A stretch of 20,859 nt of DNA from a virus. How positions within the stretch are numbered: the stretch's first letter is position 1; every line of letters starts with the position of its first letter. The DNA is taken from positions 1 through 20,859 of IMG/VR virus record IMGVR_UViG_3300042892_000324; one strand, written 5' to 3'. The notes under the pieces were generated by a model that saw nothing but the letters and a program-made list of their open reading frames with translations, was not told the DNA's origin and ran no database searches. Below, piece after piece: positions 3,325 through 15,746 of this stretch. Both the position numbers and the translations under genes were made by a program.

Positions 3325-3353
3325 ATTATAACGCAAAAACAGCACAGTGTCAA
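3325..3353 (-). promoter_or_regulatory. Consensus sigma70 promoter
   Basis: TTGACA (3353-3348), 17-bp spacer, TATAAT (3330-3325), minus strand. The -35 box lies exactly in the loop of a terminator hairpin. Confidence 0.92.
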
Positions 3354-4483: not shown

Positions 4484-4512
4484 ATTATAGCAAGAAAACA
4501 GGGGATTGTCAA
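4484..4512 (-). promoter_or_regulatory. Consensus sigma70 promoter
   Basis: TTGACA (4512-4507), 17-bp spacer, TATAAT (4489-4484), minus strand. The leader contains the shared word ACTTACACACTAAGGAGC. Confidence 0.92.
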
Positions 4513-4693
4513 CTACCCGTTAGTCCGTCTCTAACGTTCGGTGTGCCAAACATTACGCCCTAGTTCCCCGTCAGCAACTCGTGTAAACTTTCGTTTACAA
4601 CTGCCTTCATGCCCCACAGCAACCTGTCCCCGTCGGAACTCTTCGCTTGCTGTGGGCCCTAACGGACTAGGTAACCCTGTTTATTTCTTACTA
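4513..4693 (-). ncRNA. Candidate structured noncoding RNA, about 180 nt
   Basis: A perfect promoter (4700-4728) fires into this stretch, which has no convincing reading frame. As minus-strand RNA it forms a 10-bp stem (4613-4622 with 4647-4656), a 7-bp stem capped by a GAAA tetraloop (4582-4588 with 4593-4599), and a 6-bp stem near the 3' end (4518-4523 with 4531-4536). The GNRA loop exists only on this strand. The 3' stem can instead pair with 4659-4665 near the 5' end. A related block is present twice (about 4563-4579 and 4626-4641). It is not a tRNA or tmRNA by eye: no T-arm and no CCA. The 3' end is inferred from the next promoter; the function is unknown. Confidence 0.68.
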
Positions 4694-4699
4694 TGCCTT

Positions 4700-4728
4700 A
4701 TTATAGCAAGGTTTTACCAACTTGTCAA
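4700..4728 (-). promoter_or_regulatory. Consensus sigma70 promoter with no gene behind it
   Basis: TTGACA (4728-4723), 17-bp spacer, TATAAT (4705-4700), minus strand. The TGA stop of the upstream membrane-protein gene (4727-4725) lies within the -35 box. It drives the candidate RNA at 4513-4693. Confidence 0.92.
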
Positions 4729-4955
4729 CCAAATGCTTTGTATAACCCTACAATGCCTATGGCTAATGATACAACGTTGACTACAGCCTGTGGCTTATTT
4801 GCCACACGGATAGCCCATGCCAAGAACGCTACAGTGCCCACAGCGAATGCGATAATGTTATAAGGATAGACACTGGGACCTATTGCGTTGAGTACGTGCC
4901 CGGCAATGATCGCCACGGCACCTACCCATTGCAGTACTTCATTCTTATTAAACAT
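4725..4955 (-). CDS. Small inner-membrane protein
   Basis: A 76-aa protein with three hydrophobic stretches: about residues 6-22 (VLQWVGAVAIIAGHVLNAIG), 27-46 (YPYNIIAFAVGTVAFLAWAI) and 55-74 (AVVNVVSLAIGIVGLYKAFG). A basic residue cluster (RVANKP) lies between the second and third. The layout resembles small phage membrane proteins and half-size transporter-like folds (YgjV/PnuC-like), but no function can be claimed. The start at 4955 follows AGGTG and overlaps the upstream gene by 8 nt. A longer start at 4973 lacks a site. It ends Phe-Gly-stop in the next -35 box. Confidence 0.78.
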   Translation of the reverse strand: MFNKNEVLQWVGAVAIIAGHVLNAIGPSVYPYNIIAFAVGTVAFLAWAIRVANKPQAVVNVVSLAIGIVGLYKAFG

Positions 4956-5328
4956 TAACACCTTCACGATCAACCATGTCGCTCAACTCAGCGAATTTTT
5001 GTTTGTACTTGTAGACTTCGCGTTTGGCCTCATGCAGTGCTTCGCCGATGCAGTCCTCTGCGGTGCCGTCTGTCAGTACTTCGCGAGCGTCCTTGTACAG
5101 GCACCCTCCCAGGTAGTGCGAACCCATCTCAAGCCCCTCTACCATTACACGTACACGCAACATGAACCAGTCCAAGTTGCCATTGTCGATGTCTTTACAC
5201 ATCTTGCTAACTTCTTCTTCACTATCAAAGTCAAAGCAATCACGTGGGTTCAGGTCTTCGTAGCTCTTGTCTACGATAACAGTAAAGCCATCGCGCTCGT
5301 AAGTTGCCAGTTCATCGTAGTATCGCAT
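4948..5328 (-). CDS. Acidic protein of unknown function, 126 aa
   Basis: Starts MRYYDELATYERDGFTVIVD. The N-terminal half looks alpha/beta (DGFTVIVDKSYEDLNPRDCF, LDWFMLRVRVMVEGLEMGSH) and the C-terminal part is a charged helix (ALHEAKREVYKYKQKFAELS). I do not recognise the family. An AAAGG site lies 5 nt before the ATG and the upstream gene ends 9 nt away. It is the middle gene of a three-gene unit driven from 5609-5637. Confidence 0.75.
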   Translation of the reverse strand: MRYYDELATYERDGFTVIVDKSYEDLNPRDCFDFDSEEEVSKMCKDIDNGNLDWFMLRVRVMVEGLEMGSHYLGGCLYKDAREVLTDGTAEDCIGEALHEAKREVYKYKQKFAELSDMVDREGVNV

Positions 5329-5608: not shown

Positions 5609-5637
5609 ATTATAACAGGTTTTACCAACCCTGTCAA
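5609..5637 (-). promoter_or_regulatory. Consensus sigma70 promoter
   Basis: TTGACA (5637-5632), 17-bp spacer, TATAAT (5614-5609), minus strand. The -35 box lies mostly in the loop of a 6-bp hairpin (5627-5647). Confidence 0.92.
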
Positions 5638-5647
5638 CCGAAGGGTT
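5627..5647 (-). terminator. Small hairpin at stop codon, -35 box in its loop
   Basis: AACCCT (5627-5632) pairs with AGGGTT (5642-5647). The stem begins within the TAA stop of the upstream gene. A second hairpin-like word, GGTAAAACC, follows. There is no long U-run, so it is weak as a terminator. Confidence 0.5.
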
Positions 5648-6008
5648 ATTCAACGCCCACAGACACATCGACCTCAATATCTGTAACGTCGCCAGCGAGA
5701 TCGAACTTCAAGCCCGTCACTGCCGCGCCGTAGTTAACTGCCTTGAGACGCTCGCGAATCATGCTTTCAAGATCGCCCATCATGTCGCCAATGAAGTCAG
5801 TGGCACTGTCTTTTACGCCTTTCAGCGTCTCATTGACGCTTGCCCGTGTAATGTCGCTGCCGCTCTCGCCGTCCATGATCATCTCAATGAACGCTTCTGT
5901 CTGGCTGATCAAGGCCTGCTCTACGATAGCGTTGACCAGTTCCCGTTTAGCCCACAGCACTTCAACGGCTTTGAAAGTCTGCTCACCTGCTTTGTATACC
6001 ACTGTCAT
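5646..6008 (-). CDS. Protein of unknown function, 120 aa
   Basis: Starts MTVVYKAGEQTFKAVEVLWA. Mostly helical in the middle (LVNAIVEQALISQTEAFIEM, DFIGDMMGDLESMIRERLKA) with a beta-rich end (GAAVTGLKFDLAGDVTDIEV). No family recognised. The ATG at 6008 follows AGGAG and a perfect promoter with a leader of about 20 nt. It stands alone in its unit. Confidence 0.75.
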   Translation of the reverse strand: MTVVYKAGEQTFKAVEVLWAKRELVNAIVEQALISQTEAFIEMIMDGESGSDITRASVNETLKGVKDSATDFIGDMMGDLESMIRERLKAVNYGAAVTGLKFDLAGDVTDIEVDVSVGVE

Positions 6009-6083: not shown

Positions 6084-6356
6084 TCAAGCCGTTTCCAGCA
6101 TGTTAGCAGGCACCCTCCACAAGCCCTGCGGAGTACGCACAGTGACGAACTTGATAGCGATCTTGTCAACTGTGCCAATGAGGGTCACACCGCTCTTTGT
6201 ACTAGTGAACTTGACTGTGGCACCCAGGCGAAGCGATCGCTTGTTGGTCTCTGTAAGGCGTGCTCGGGCAAACTTCACAGCGTCGATGATGCTGGACAGT
6301 TGCTCGTTAGTGAAGTTGCCTGCGAGGATCTCTGCGTTAACTGTTTGAATAGACAT
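6084..6356 (-). CDS. Conserved phage protein with SH3-like C-terminal half
   Basis: A 90-aa protein starting MSIQTVNAEILAGNFTNEQL. Residues 17-40 form a helix (LSSIIDAVKFARARLTETNK). Residues 43-88 (LRLGATVKFTSTKSGVTLIG, then WRVPANMLE) read as a small beta barrel of the SH3/Tudor type. The same architecture, including the WRVPANML ending, recurs in phage proteins, with no role known to me. The start at 6356 follows GGAG and the promoter at 6384-6413. Confidence 0.78.
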   Translation of the reverse strand: MSIQTVNAEILAGNFTNEQLSSIIDAVKFARARLTETNKRSLRLGATVKFTSTKSGVTLIGTVDKIAIKFVTVRTPQGLWRVPANMLETA

Positions 6357-6383
6357 TCAATGCTCCTTAGTGTGTAAGTGTAT

Positions 6384-6413
6384 ATTATACGGTAAAACCA
6401 ATAACCTTGTCAA
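6384..6413 (-). promoter_or_regulatory. Sigma70 promoter with 18-bp spacer, inside a gene
   Basis: TTGACA (6413-6408), an 18-bp spacer and TATAAT (6389-6384), minus strand. The whole promoter is coding sequence for the last codons of the upstream gene, whose TAA stop (6387-6385) lies in the -10 box. It is the only promoter of the set with an 18-bp spacer. Confidence 0.85.
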
Positions 6414-6546
6414 CCATCGGGTTTTTACGAGCCACAGACCGCCATGCCCGATTGGCCTTGGCGTATTGCTGGGCGTTTGTAGTAAAGCCCGGGAATCGAG
6501 TCCTTGCCCAGATCACGAAGTTCAGTCGTTCAATCTCGTTCTTCAT
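6385..6546 (-). CDS. Small basic protein whose end encodes a promoter
   Basis: A 53-aa protein starting MKNEIERLNFVIWARTRFPG and ending MVDKVIGFTV, basic and aromatic. No family recognised. GGAG lies 6 nt before the ATG at 6546, and the start overlaps the upstream stop by one base (TGATG), so coupling is likely. An earlier in-frame ATG at 6582 lies inside the upstream gene and lacks a site. Its last nine codons contain the downstream promoter, which limits what this C-terminus can be. Confidence 0.7.
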   Translation of the reverse strand: MKNEIERLNFVIWARTRFPGFTTNAQQYAKANRAWRSVARKNPMVDKVIGFTV

Positions 6547-6827
6547 CACATGCTCCAGTAGAGTTCGCTTGAAGGATCGCATGAGCGGGGAGTGTCCGTT
6601 GGGATCTGCACATCTACGCCCGTCATTAGGTTCTTGACAGTCTTCATTGTAGGGAAGTACTCAAAGCGGAAGCCCTTGCTTGCAGGGTACAGCCAGTAGA
6701 GTCCGTTGCACTCATGTCGCATAGCTTCCGCAGTACGATCTGCCCACACTGTAGTAGAGACCAGACGCTCGCCACTCTTGGTGCGCTTGTCTGCTTTATA
6801 AATGTACATGGTGTAGTCTTGTTTCAT
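6546..6827 (-). CDS. Conserved phage protein of unknown function
   Basis: A 93-aa protein starting MKQDYTMYIYKADKRTKSGE. The segments LVSTTVWADRT, KGFRFEYFPTMKTVKNLMTG, and the ending DTPRSCDPSSELYWSM are familiar from other phage genomes, but no function is attached. Two ATGs stand side by side (6830, 6827). GGAG is only 2 nt from the first and 5 nt from the second, so I chose the second. The leader is short and comes from a perfect promoter. Confidence 0.78.
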   Translation of the reverse strand: MKQDYTMYIYKADKRTKSGERLVSTTVWADRTAEAMRHECNGLYWLYPASKGFRFEYFPTMKTVKNLMTGVDVQIPTDTPRSCDPSSELYWSM

Positions 6828-6849
6828 CATTGCTCCTTAGTGTGTGTCT

Positions 6850-6878
6850 ATTATAACATGGTTTTACCAGTTTGTCAA
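6850..6878 (-). promoter_or_regulatory. Consensus sigma70 promoter
   Basis: TTGACA (6878-6873), 17-bp spacer, TATAAT (6855-6850), minus strand. The upstream gene's TGA (6877-6875) lies within the -35 box. Confidence 0.92.
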
Positions 6879-7213
6879 TCCCCACGAACATCTGTGTTCA
6901 ATGCGGGCTTTACCATACGACGGATCTCAACTTCCCTCTTGTGAGCAGCCGCCTTGCCACGAATGACCTCGTGTACATAGACCTCGATCTCGCTCTTGTC
7001 AGCAAGTGTACGCAATTCAGCGCACAAGAGCCAGTTCTTAGTCTCAGTCTTGGCACGATAAAAGTGTTTTGCGGCACGACTCAAAACACTCTTGTTTACA
7101 GTGCTTTCAGTCTTAGCTGTGACGCCAATGTAGTTCTTGCCATTCACGACCAGCTCATAGATGATATGATTGCGGTCTACACGCTTCTTACGGGTTACTG
7201 TTTGTGTCGTCAT
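6875..7213 (-). CDS. GIY-YIG-like nuclease domain protein
   Basis: A 112-aa protein. Residues 17-19 (IIY) and 28-30 (YIG) with a 9-residue gap match the GIY-YIG nuclease core. Arg46/His50 (SRAAKHFYRA), Glu94 or Glu96 (KREVEIRRMV) and Asn106 in KPALN match the later core positions. It is a bare domain without an added DNA-binding module, so a phage-conserved small nuclease fits better than a full homing endonuclease. Targets and activity are unknown. The ATG at 7213 lies only 6 nt after the -10 box with no ribosome-binding site, so the message is probably leaderless. The longer frame from 7240 starts within the promoter. Confidence 0.75.
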   Translation of the reverse strand: MTTQTVTRKKRVDRNHIIYELVVNGKNYIGVTAKTESTVNKSVLSRAAKHFYRAKTETKNWLLCAELRTLADKSEIEVYVHEVIRGKAAAHKREVEIRRMVKPALNTDVRGD

Positions 7214-7219
7214 GTGTGT

Positions 7220-7248
7220 ATTATAGCAAGGTTTTACCAATCAGTCAA
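7220..7248 (-). promoter_or_regulatory. Near-consensus sigma70 promoter, leaderless arrangement
   Basis: TTGACT (7248-7243), 17-bp spacer, TATAAT (7225-7220), minus strand. The start codon (7213-7211) coincides with the expected transcription start. Confidence 0.85.
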
Positions 7249-13108: not shown

Positions 13109-13146
13109 GAAGCATTCTCTACTAAGATAATTAGTAGTAATGCTTC
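13109..13146 (+). promoter_or_regulatory. Hairpin covering the start codon of the fusion enzyme
   Basis: GAAGCATT (13109-13116) pairs with AATGCTTC (13139-13146), and inside it CTACTAA (13119-13125) pairs with TTAGTAG (13131-13137) around a 5-nt loop. The ATG start (13140-13142) is in the outer stem. It follows the virion gene's stop by 8 nt, so it may act as a terminator, a processing site or a translation brake. Confidence 0.65.
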
Positions 13147-15746
13147 TAGATCAATACCCCAAAATCAATACAGACTTAGTTAAAGAAATCCCCTGGGAGG
13201 GAGATGAGCTTTATTATGACCAACAATTGTACAACTTAGGTGAACGCGACACTGAATTTTTAGTGATAAATCCTTACATAAGACATCCAAGTATCTTGAA
13301 CTTTGTAAATTATGTTCCTAAAACTAGAAAATGTATAGTCTGGACATATAAAGGCGAATGGACTGCTAAATTATTCAAAAACGGATGGCATCCTTATCAT
13401 GGATATGAAACTTACGAAATAGAAGTGCTAAACAATTATGTATGGAAAAGAAATCCTGCAATCAGTCATTCTATTACGTTTGATATAAATCCTATAGAAA
13501 ATCATACACATGAGTGGAGTGATTTGGAGTATAAACTAGTTTGGTATATTGATCCTAGAGTAAATCCCTTAGAAGATAAAGTATGGGCATTCAGTTGTGA
13601 AGCAACTAATGTTAAGACTAAAGGCGAAAAAGATATGGGATATGTAATGCCCGATCTAACAGTTACATGGAATCCAGATATACCTAAAATGCAGGTCAAC
13701 ATTGATGAATGCTATCCTGCATTTTGGTCGTTAGACAATGTATCAGTAATTGAATTAGACCCTAATTATAGTCCAGCACCAGCTACATGGATGATTAAAT
13801 TTGAACCTAAACATAAGAAAAGTAGCAAATGGGAGTGGATGGGTACTGTAAGTCCTGAGTTTAAAATTGAACAAAATCCTAGCCTACCAGAAATGCGTTT
13901 TGATTTAGATTACGACATTCCTTGGCACGATCTAGCCTATGAACATATATGGTATCTAGATAAAGAAATAAACGGGGAGAAGGTTTGGGCTTTGAAAATT
14001 ACTCCCAGTGCAGAGATTGTAGGTGTTAAAGAAATGGGAACAGTTACTCCTCTAATTGCTGCAACTATGGATGTGATCTTTATTAGTTACAATGAACCTA
14101 ATGCAGAAGAGAACTGGGCTCGTGTATTAGAAAAAGCCCCACACGCTAAACGAGTAAACGGAGTTGAGGGTATATTTGAAGCACACAAGGCCGCCGCCAA
14201 ATTAGCAATAACAGATATGTTTTTTGTAGTGGACGGTGATGCATATCTCGTAGATGATTGGCAGTTTAATTTCCAGCCTGGAATATTTGATAGAGACTGT
14301 ACATATGTCTGGCATAGTAAGAATCCTCTAAATGATCTAACATACGGATACGGAGGAGTTAAATTATTTCCACGAAAATCTTTAACCAGAGCCAGAAAAT
14401 GGAATACATTGGACCTATCTACAACAATAACATCTAAATTAAAAGTAATCGAAACAGTTAGTAATATTACTGCATTCAATACAGATGAATATTCTACCTG
14501 GCGCAGTGCATTCAGAGAAGTAGTTAAACTATGCGAGACAATTAAACGAGATACTAATGATACAGATGCTATACATAGGCTAGATACATGGAAGACGGTA
14601 GGGTTAGATAAACCATTTGGCAATTATGCAATTGCCGGAGCTAACGCCGCTGTTGCTTTCTTTGATAGGAACTATGATACACCGCAATTGCGACAAATAA
14701 ATAATGGAGAATGGTTATACACAATGTTTAAAAATGAGAAGCCTTCAGTCTTTAATTATAAACCTATTAAGATTGTCAAACAAGAAGAGATTGTAGTTGA
14801 TCCTACAGTATACACAAGATTAGAACACTCAAATCCAGACCACGCAGACTGGTTTGTAGTCAACTGGTGCCTTGGCAATACCTGCAACTTTAGTTGTAGC
14901 TACTGCCCGATAGATCTTCACGATGCATCTATCCCCTGGCCTGACTTAGATGTTATAAAGAACTTCATTATGAAGATCAAGCAGGCACATCCTAGTAAGA
15001 AGATATACTTTGAATTTACAGGCGGTGAAGTTACACTATACAAACACTTTGTTGAACTGTGTCAGTTTTGTACAGAACACGGTGTTAAAGTTGGATTGAT
15101 TAGTAACGGCAGTCGTACATTGCGTTACTGGGAAGAAAATAAACAATACTTTGATCATGTATGTCTAAGTTTTCATCCAGAAGAGGCTGATGAAAAGCAT
15201 TTTATTGAAGTTGTTAAAATTTTAAACAACGATGTACGCACTCATGTCAACATTATGATGAGCCCCGAGAAGTTTGACTTTTGCTATGCCGTGGCGAATA
15301 AGGTTAAGAACTTAGGTAATATATCAATGGCATTGCAACCACTGATACATGACTTTGGTGACACTTTATACGACTATAACGAATTTCAAAAGAAGATATT
15401 TGATAAACAACACGAGTTAATTGTCAAACATATCAAATACACGAAAACGTTTGATTACTATCGAGGCGCAATGGTTAAACTCTTTCCAGACGGCAACAAA
15501 CAAGTATCGAGCGCACAGCGTTTTGTCAGTGACAAAACAAATGACTGGTCTGGTTGGAAATGTTACGCAGGAGTTGAACAATTAATTGTTGATAAAGACG
15601 GTAGTGTTCATAGAGGTTGGTGCAAAGAAGGCGGCATGATTGGGCGTATTACAGACCCTGAATTAAACTTATCGATTGGGCCCGTGGTATGCGGTAGTAC
15701 AATGTGCCATTGCAATTTTGATATTATGTGTACTAAAGAAAAATGA
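13140..15746 (+). CDS. Glycosyltransferase-radical SAM fusion
   Basis: An 868-aa protein in three regions. Residues about 100-305 hold diverged repeats with the pattern MG-x-V-x-P ... NP-x-[IL]-P-x-M-x-[FV]-x-[IL]-D (copies near 166-189 and 234-257, partial ones beside them). Residues about 308-545 look like a GT-A glycosyltransferase: MDVIFISYNEPNAEENW opens the fold and VVDGDAYLVDDW (363-374) holds a DxD-like metal motif. Residues about 570-868 are radical SAM: CNFSCSYC gives C582, C586, C589 (CX3CX2C), and TGGE is at 627-630. Late cysteines (C808, C828, C851, C856, C858, C864) suggest a SPASM-like auxiliary cluster. The product would be a SAM-dependent modification tied to sugar transfer; the substrate is unknown. 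Confidence 0.8.
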   Translation: MLLDQYPKINTDLVKEIPWEGDELYYDQQLYNLGERDTEFLVINPYIRHPSILNFVNYVPKTRKCIVWTYKGEWTAKLFKNGWHPYHGYETYEIEVLNNYVWKRNPAISHSITFDINPIENHTHEWSDLEYKLVWYIDPRVNPLEDKVWAFSCEATNVKTKGEKDMGYVMPDLTVTWNPDIPKMQVNIDECYPAFWSLDNVSVIELDPNYSPAPATWMIKFEPKHKKSSKWEWMGTVSPEFKIEQNPSLPEMRFDLDYDIPWHDLAYEHIWYLDKEINGEKVWALKITPSAEIVGVKEMGTVTPLIAATMDVIFISYNEPNAEENWARVLEKAPHAKRVNGVEGIFEAHKAAAKLAITDMFFVVDGDAYLVDDWQFNFQPGIFDRDCTYVWHSKNPLNDLTYGYGGVKLFPRKSLTRARKWNTLDLSTTITSKLKVIETVSNITAFNTDEYSTWRSAFREVVKLCETIKRDTNDTDAIHRLDTWKTVGLDKPFGNYAIAGANAAVAFFDRNYDTPQLRQINNGEWLYTMFKNEKPSVFNYKPIKIVKQEEIVVDPTVYTRLEHSNPDHADWFVVNWCLGNTCNFSCSYCPIDLHDASIPWPDLDVIKNFIMKIKQAHPSKKIYFEFTGGEVTLYKHFVELCQFCTEHGVKVGLISNGSRTLRYWEENKQYFDHVCLSFHPEEADEKHFIEVVKILNNDVRTHVNIMMSPEKFDFCYAVANKVKNLGNISMALQPLIHDFGDTLYDYNEFQKKIFDKQHELIVKHIKYTKTFDYYRGAMVKLFPDGNKQVSSAQRFVSDKTNDWSGWKCYAGVEQLIVDKDGSVHRGWCKEGGMIGRITDPELNLSIGPVVCGSTMCHCNFDIMCTKEK

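Follow-up and report, generated by a model that had tools for sequence, protein, structure and literature searches.

A small gene in the viral DNA analysed here ends inside the promoter that precedes the next gene. The locus raises the question of what determines the last residues of the encoded protein, and the original prediction had left two answers to choose from: the tail is tolerated junk, or promoter and protein are jointly constrained. In what follows, the window is the whole stretch of DNA that was analysed (20,859 nt), and loci from its relatives carry L numbers.

Promoter and gene end

Sigma-70 promoters were defined as TTGACA and TATAAT separated by 16-18 bp, and one was found at positions 6413-6384 on the minus strand. 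It reads TTGACA-AGGTTATTGGTTTTACCG-TATAAT; the spacer is 18 bp long, and all hexamer positions agree with the sigma-70 consensus (12/12). The 53-aa gene (6385-6546, minus strand; MKNEIERLNF...NPMVDKVIGFTV*) carries this promoter in its 3' end and is read straight through it, as ...GTT GAC AAG GTT ATT GGT TTT ACC GTA TAA. The -35 box (6408-6413) is read (G)TT GAC A, giving V D K, and the spacer (6390-6407) is read KVIGFTV; the TAA stop (6385-6387) lies within the TATAAT of the -10 box (6384-6389). At 6391-6399, and thus ending 1 nt before the -10 box, the spacer contains GGTTTTACC, which is the spacer motif of the array, GGTAAAACC, inverted. All of these features are on the minus strand, as are the AAGGAGC ribosome-binding site of the next gene (6362-6368), recognized by its sequence, and that gene itself (6084-6356, 90 aa), which is putatively driven by the 6413-6384 promoter and is replaced in relatives by other genes of the array. 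A promoter inside the 3' end of the 53-aa gene with TAA within TATAAT, and a terminal VDKVIGFTV that is a translated promoter, had both been predicted; coordinates and reading frame were confirmed, and the 53-aa frame does spell the -35 box and the spacer.

The ATG of the 53-aa gene is part of a TGATG overlap with the upstream 94-aa gene (6546-6830, minus strand); most of the 18 loci tested have a homologue of the 94-aa gene in this upstream position. A longer, mechanically called ORF of 65 aa was unsupported, the homologues starting at MKNE or its equivalent. The gene is encoded on 26 IMG/VR contigs at 73-100% identity, and its homologues range from 49 to 63 aa in length. Over codons 2-43 of 11 distinct homologues pN/pS was 0.20, which marks the 53-aa frame as a real gene. 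No family match to the protein was found in Pfam or PHROGs, no tblastn match among isolated phages, and no relative in a scan of GTDB genomes.

Shuffling the window gave an expectation of 0.01 perfect matches at a spacer length of 18 bp, and one was seen; for 17-bp spacers the expectation was 0.00 and 11 were seen, all on the minus strand. A promoter-like string falling by chance within a spurious ORF has nothing in its favour except the small size of the ORF, and against it stand this expectation of 0.01 per window, the conservation across 26 contigs and the low pN/pS of the frame; this reading, exceedingly improbable, is already refuted.

Gene ends in homologues

Of the 26 closest homologues, 24 likewise translate the -35 box, without a change of frame, and three endings were observed among them. 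Thirteen contigs have an 18-bp spacer, and there the TAA of TATAAT stops translation, giving 53 aa. Eight have a 17-bp spacer; TATAAT is then read Y-N and followed by a TAA codon, giving 54 aa, with the frame continuing to TATAATTAA. In the remaining three (L022-L024) the frame crosses the leader to a TGA overlapping the next ATG, giving 63 aa. The promoter of L025 and L026 is in another register and begins at the stop codon, which there, as in the distant homologues L252, L253, L255 and L256, is the TGA inside TTGACA; the corresponding box of L257 is TTGACG, and its TGA is also the stop.

Where the promoter register differs (L025, L252, L253, L255-L257) the proteins have tails such as RMVIQQID, SRVIG, RVVYPKTN and RRVVD. 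It had been suggested that homologues be aligned for conservation of the tail away from the promoter; the tail proved not to be conserved where the register differs, but NP...V is kept in these homologues (DP...V in L257). Retention of NP...V weakens the view that the C-terminus from residue 41 is translated cassette and nothing else, and part of what looks like cassette near the gene end may reflect constraint on the protein.

Constraint on the tail

Comparison of the homologues gave zero synonymous change in codons 45-48 (V/I-D-K-V), which cover the -35 box and its flank, with the caveat that codons 31-38 are as low in synonymous change as these promoter codons. The sole amino-acid change in codons 45-48, GTT/ATT, leaves TTGACA intact. 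In the last four codons (50-53), which span the remaining spacer and the -10 box, pN was 0.42-0.54 vs 0.075 in the body of the gene. Because the -35 codons are frozen and pN in codons 50-53 is far above that of the body, the promoter appears to dictate the tail residues and the protein to tolerate them. Both of the alternatives set out at the start therefore apply, each to its own part: the last four codons answer to the description of tolerated junk, and joint constraint describes the frozen codons 45-48 and fails for the last four.

A stronger form of joint constraint, in which VDKVIGFTV serves the protein in its own right and selection acts on both promoter and protein along the entire stretch, is improbable. 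Close homologues hardly vary at codons 44-49 (M V D K V I) and P...V is invariant even in distant ones, as such a function would have it, but the residues that stay constant are those specified by the -35 box and its flank. The last four residues are the most variable of all, the length of the protein varies, and homologues that lack the promoter in that register differ at V-D and past I49. The tail presumably has no protein function of its own.

The 18-bp spacer

The 18-bp spacer had been singled out as the only one of its set. This holds among the 12 perfect promoters of the window and fails in the relatives, where 18 of 479 distinct perfect promoters have spacers of this length. A spacer of 18 bp puts the TAA of TATAAT in the 53-aa reading frame and one of 17 bp does not. 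Two accounts of the extra base were weighed. In one, which we consider rather unlikely, the 18-bp spacer was selected to place this TAA in frame, stopping translation before the leader. With 17 bp the frame reaches TATAATTAA (54 aa) or the next ATG (63 aa, L022-L024), and the combination of long spacer and in-frame stop also occurs in two other gene families, L021/L049 (46-47 aa) and L222 (127 aa). An initial count by hand yielded p = 0.0003, but with one consistent ORF threshold the figures became 2/20 vs 19/502 (p = 0.19). Furthermore, L055 has an 18-bp spacer and the same inverted motif with no ORF overlapping them, and the context of most 18-bp spacers is non-coding.

In the other account, which can be entertained tentatively, the promoter is a hybrid whose left part comes from the 53-aa gene and whose right part (GGTTTTACC-R-TATAAT and the leader) comes from the promoter of the 90-aa gene, the join producing 18 bp. 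Promoters with inverted GGTTTTACC precede the 90-aa gene despite a different upstream gene in L048, L049 and L055, and 53-aa genes with other downstream genes have AGAACCTGC or similar in its place, both as expected of a hybrid. However, L055 is alike in the left part too, the inverted motif is missing from L022-L024, which have both the 53-aa gene and the 90-aa gene, the promoters of L048 and L049 have 17 bp, and the direction of change is ambiguous. Given the p value of the consistent count and the untranslated 18-bp promoter of L055, a link between the 18-bp spacer and the stop codon is not established.

Sharing of tail and promoter between gene bodies

The bodies of the homologues in L258-L260 belong to a distant clade, sharing 90/117 nt with L256 and 68/117 (58%) with L018. 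Over the last 45 coding nucleotides they nevertheless match L018 exactly (45/45), and the match continues through TATAATTAA, making a shared segment of 51 nt that comprises tail and promoter; the genes downstream of this segment differ between L258-L260 and L018. The same string, TAAAGACCCTANGGTTGACA, stands untranslated behind a 94-aa-gene homologue and behind one other gene, with its TAA serving as their stop codon; within the 53-aa gene it is read in the +1 frame, which leaves that TAA out of frame. The non-coding and the translated forms occur within one contig (L292 and L294, from the same contigs as L018 and L019). Across the relatives, the gene directly 3' of the 53-aa gene is a homologue of window gene g6084, g4948, g5338, g4191, g2113 or g5646; all six are members of the window's own array, joined in differing orders. 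In L048, L049 and L289 the promoter follows the end of the 94-aa gene, and the 53-aa gene is absent.

Tail and promoter thus appear to form a swappable cassette that mediates gene shuffling, presumably by homologous recombination. The bodies of L258 and L018 are themselves homologous, and recombination could therefore be driven by the genes rather than by the promoter.

Hairpins

A hairpin of the form RACCC..GGGTY was found just upstream of the -35 box at 58 of 524 promoters vs 4 at control positions, and stems of at least 7 bp enclosing the -35 box numbered 37 vs about 8 with swapped partners. Strong RNA hairpins whose loop contains the -35 box are located at 3353-3320, 2920-2888 and 6063-6030 on the minus strand (z -3.5 to -4.8). 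Those at 3353 and 2920 are followed by TTTTT, and the 3' arm and T-run form the promoter spacer, terminator and promoter sharing the same bases. At the 6413 junction the hairpin is degenerate and the RNA fold was not better than shuffles (z +1.3); folding lends no support to a terminator at this junction itself. A compact non-coding cassette at 5609-5650 (minus strand), AACCC-TTCGG-TTGACA-GGGTT, has the same layout as the translated one at 6384-6425.

The array of small genes

The early-type sigma-70 promoter is repeated between the small genes of an array, and its 12 perfect copies in the window are all on one strand (minus). The fetched loci of relatives yielded the 479 distinct perfect promoters mentioned above, and the search of larger relatives (107-208 kb) showed perfect promoters concentrated in one region in most of them. 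Gene ends were counted as ORFs of at least 50 aa ending within 45 nt of the start of the -35 box, and 356 of the 479 promoters had one. The TGA inside TTGACA was by far the commonest stop position (80/356), about 70 further ORFs run through the -35 box, and 102 of the 204 ORFs reaching the box do so in frame 1; the ORFs were called mechanically, and some are surely spurious. Within the window, four minus-strand genes stop at the TGA of the next TTGACA: 1410-1589 (TGA at 1410-1412, box at 1413-1408), 2436-2675 (2436-2438, 2439-2434), 4725-4973 (4725-4727, 4728-4723) and 6875-7240 (6875-6877, 6878-6873). Overlap of the -35 box with gene ends is a general property of the array, which the original prediction had missed.

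The spacer motif GGTAAAACC is nearly confined to promoters, 108 of its 110 distinct occurrences in L001-L106 and the window being inside promoter spacers. It occurs in the spacers of promoters 2059, 4728, 5637, 6878, 7248 and others, mostly at offset 4 of a 17-bp spacer; its inverted form, ending 1 nt before the -10 box, was seen in nine cases, and spacers of other relatives have GCCAAAAGGC-like sequences instead. A phage regulator of the early array could bind at this motif. A fully symmetrical operator was disfavoured by the orientation bias at the other promoters (98 forward vs 10 inverted).

Between the strong promoters at 4728-4700 and 4512-4484, the minus strand has a stretch (4510-4680) with no evident gene. 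It folds strongly (z -4.7), and 11 pairs have compensatory changes in six sequences, with homologues in L185, L164, L138, L162 and L222; a search of Rfam gave no family match. The stretch probably gives rise, from a promoter of its own, to a small phage RNA not described before. In the right part of the window, on the plus strand, a radical SAM protein is encoded at 13140-15746 and further genes extend to 20325, forming a module different from the early array.

No hallmark gene was found in the window itself. The sister contig G002, from which L007 was taken, encodes a large terminase of T4 type, 54% identical to that of Pseudomonas phage PA5oct. The group consists of uncultured freshwater phages that are putatively related to T4.

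Discussion

The gene end at 6413-6384 is probably the product of a composite terminator-promoter cassette, similar to the elements known as PeSLs, that was joined out of frame to the 53-aa gene and supplies its C-terminus and stop codon. A junction in the early-gene array of this phage would consist of a hairpin (5'-RACCC...GGGTY), a consensus sigma-70 promoter, a leader, AAGGAGC and the next ATG. Elsewhere the cassette would begin at or just past the preceding stop codon, or would provide the stop itself (the TAA of TAAAGACCC or the TGA of TTGACA). After the 53-aa gene it would have been joined in another frame, and translation would therefore traverse hairpin arm, -35 box (together NP-MVDK-VI) and spacer, ending at the first stop that the cassette offers: the TAA of TATAAT with an 18-bp spacer, the TAA just past TATAAT with a 17-bp spacer, or the TGA overlapping the next ATG. 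Host RNA polymerase with its main sigma factor presumably uses the promoter to transcribe the next gene, and transcription of the array is likely to be early. The cassette would double as a joint for recombination.

Internal promoters in the 3' ends of upstream genes are known, for example the trp internal promoter P2 in trpD of E. coli. The present case resembles it in that the promoter of a downstream gene lies within coding sequence; promoters of the trp P2 type are within long conserved genes, whereas here a perfect consensus promoter forms the gene end and its hexamers supply stop codons. Compact phage genomes also have stop/start overlaps (ATGA, TGATG, TAATG), in which neighbouring genes share signal bases, as the 94-aa and 53-aa genes do here. 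Those overlaps involve translation signals, whereas at 6413-6384 the last codons of a reading frame have bases in common with a transcription signal. Literature searches on promoters overlapping phage gene ends returned nothing directly on point.

The closest parallel is with the promoter early stem-loops (PeSLs) of T4-like phages, composite promoter-terminator motifs that are reported to mediate gene shuffling (PMC4503421, referring to Arbiol et al. 2010 and Comeau et al. 2014). The elements described here are like the PeSLs of T4-type myoviruses in combining, across the group though not at the 6413 junction, an early host-type promoter with a stem-loop, in occurring in many copies between small genes and in shuffling at the element. 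They may differ from PeSLs in overlapping the end of the preceding gene and giving it a stop or C-terminal residues, in often having the -35 box in the hairpin loop, and in the recurring spacer motif GGTAAAACC. The cassette is a variant of an already known kind of element, and the surprise is how generally promoters supply stops and tails, with tail plus promoter shared as one unit by diverged genes.

The cassette may further be a portable gene end, a proposal to which we give a little less than even weight. It would bring along a stop codon, plus a C-terminal tail in some frames; recombination would swap promoter, stop and tail together, and the frame of joining would decide the tail. Small phage genes could then be shuffled unbroken, the hexamers of the junction element holding stops that fit nearly any frame. 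Because the same tail stands on different bodies and different tails stand on the same body, these loci would provide a natural test of the importance of C-terminal tails. For annotation this is a warning that many small phage proteins may end in translated promoter rather than in conserved protein sequence.
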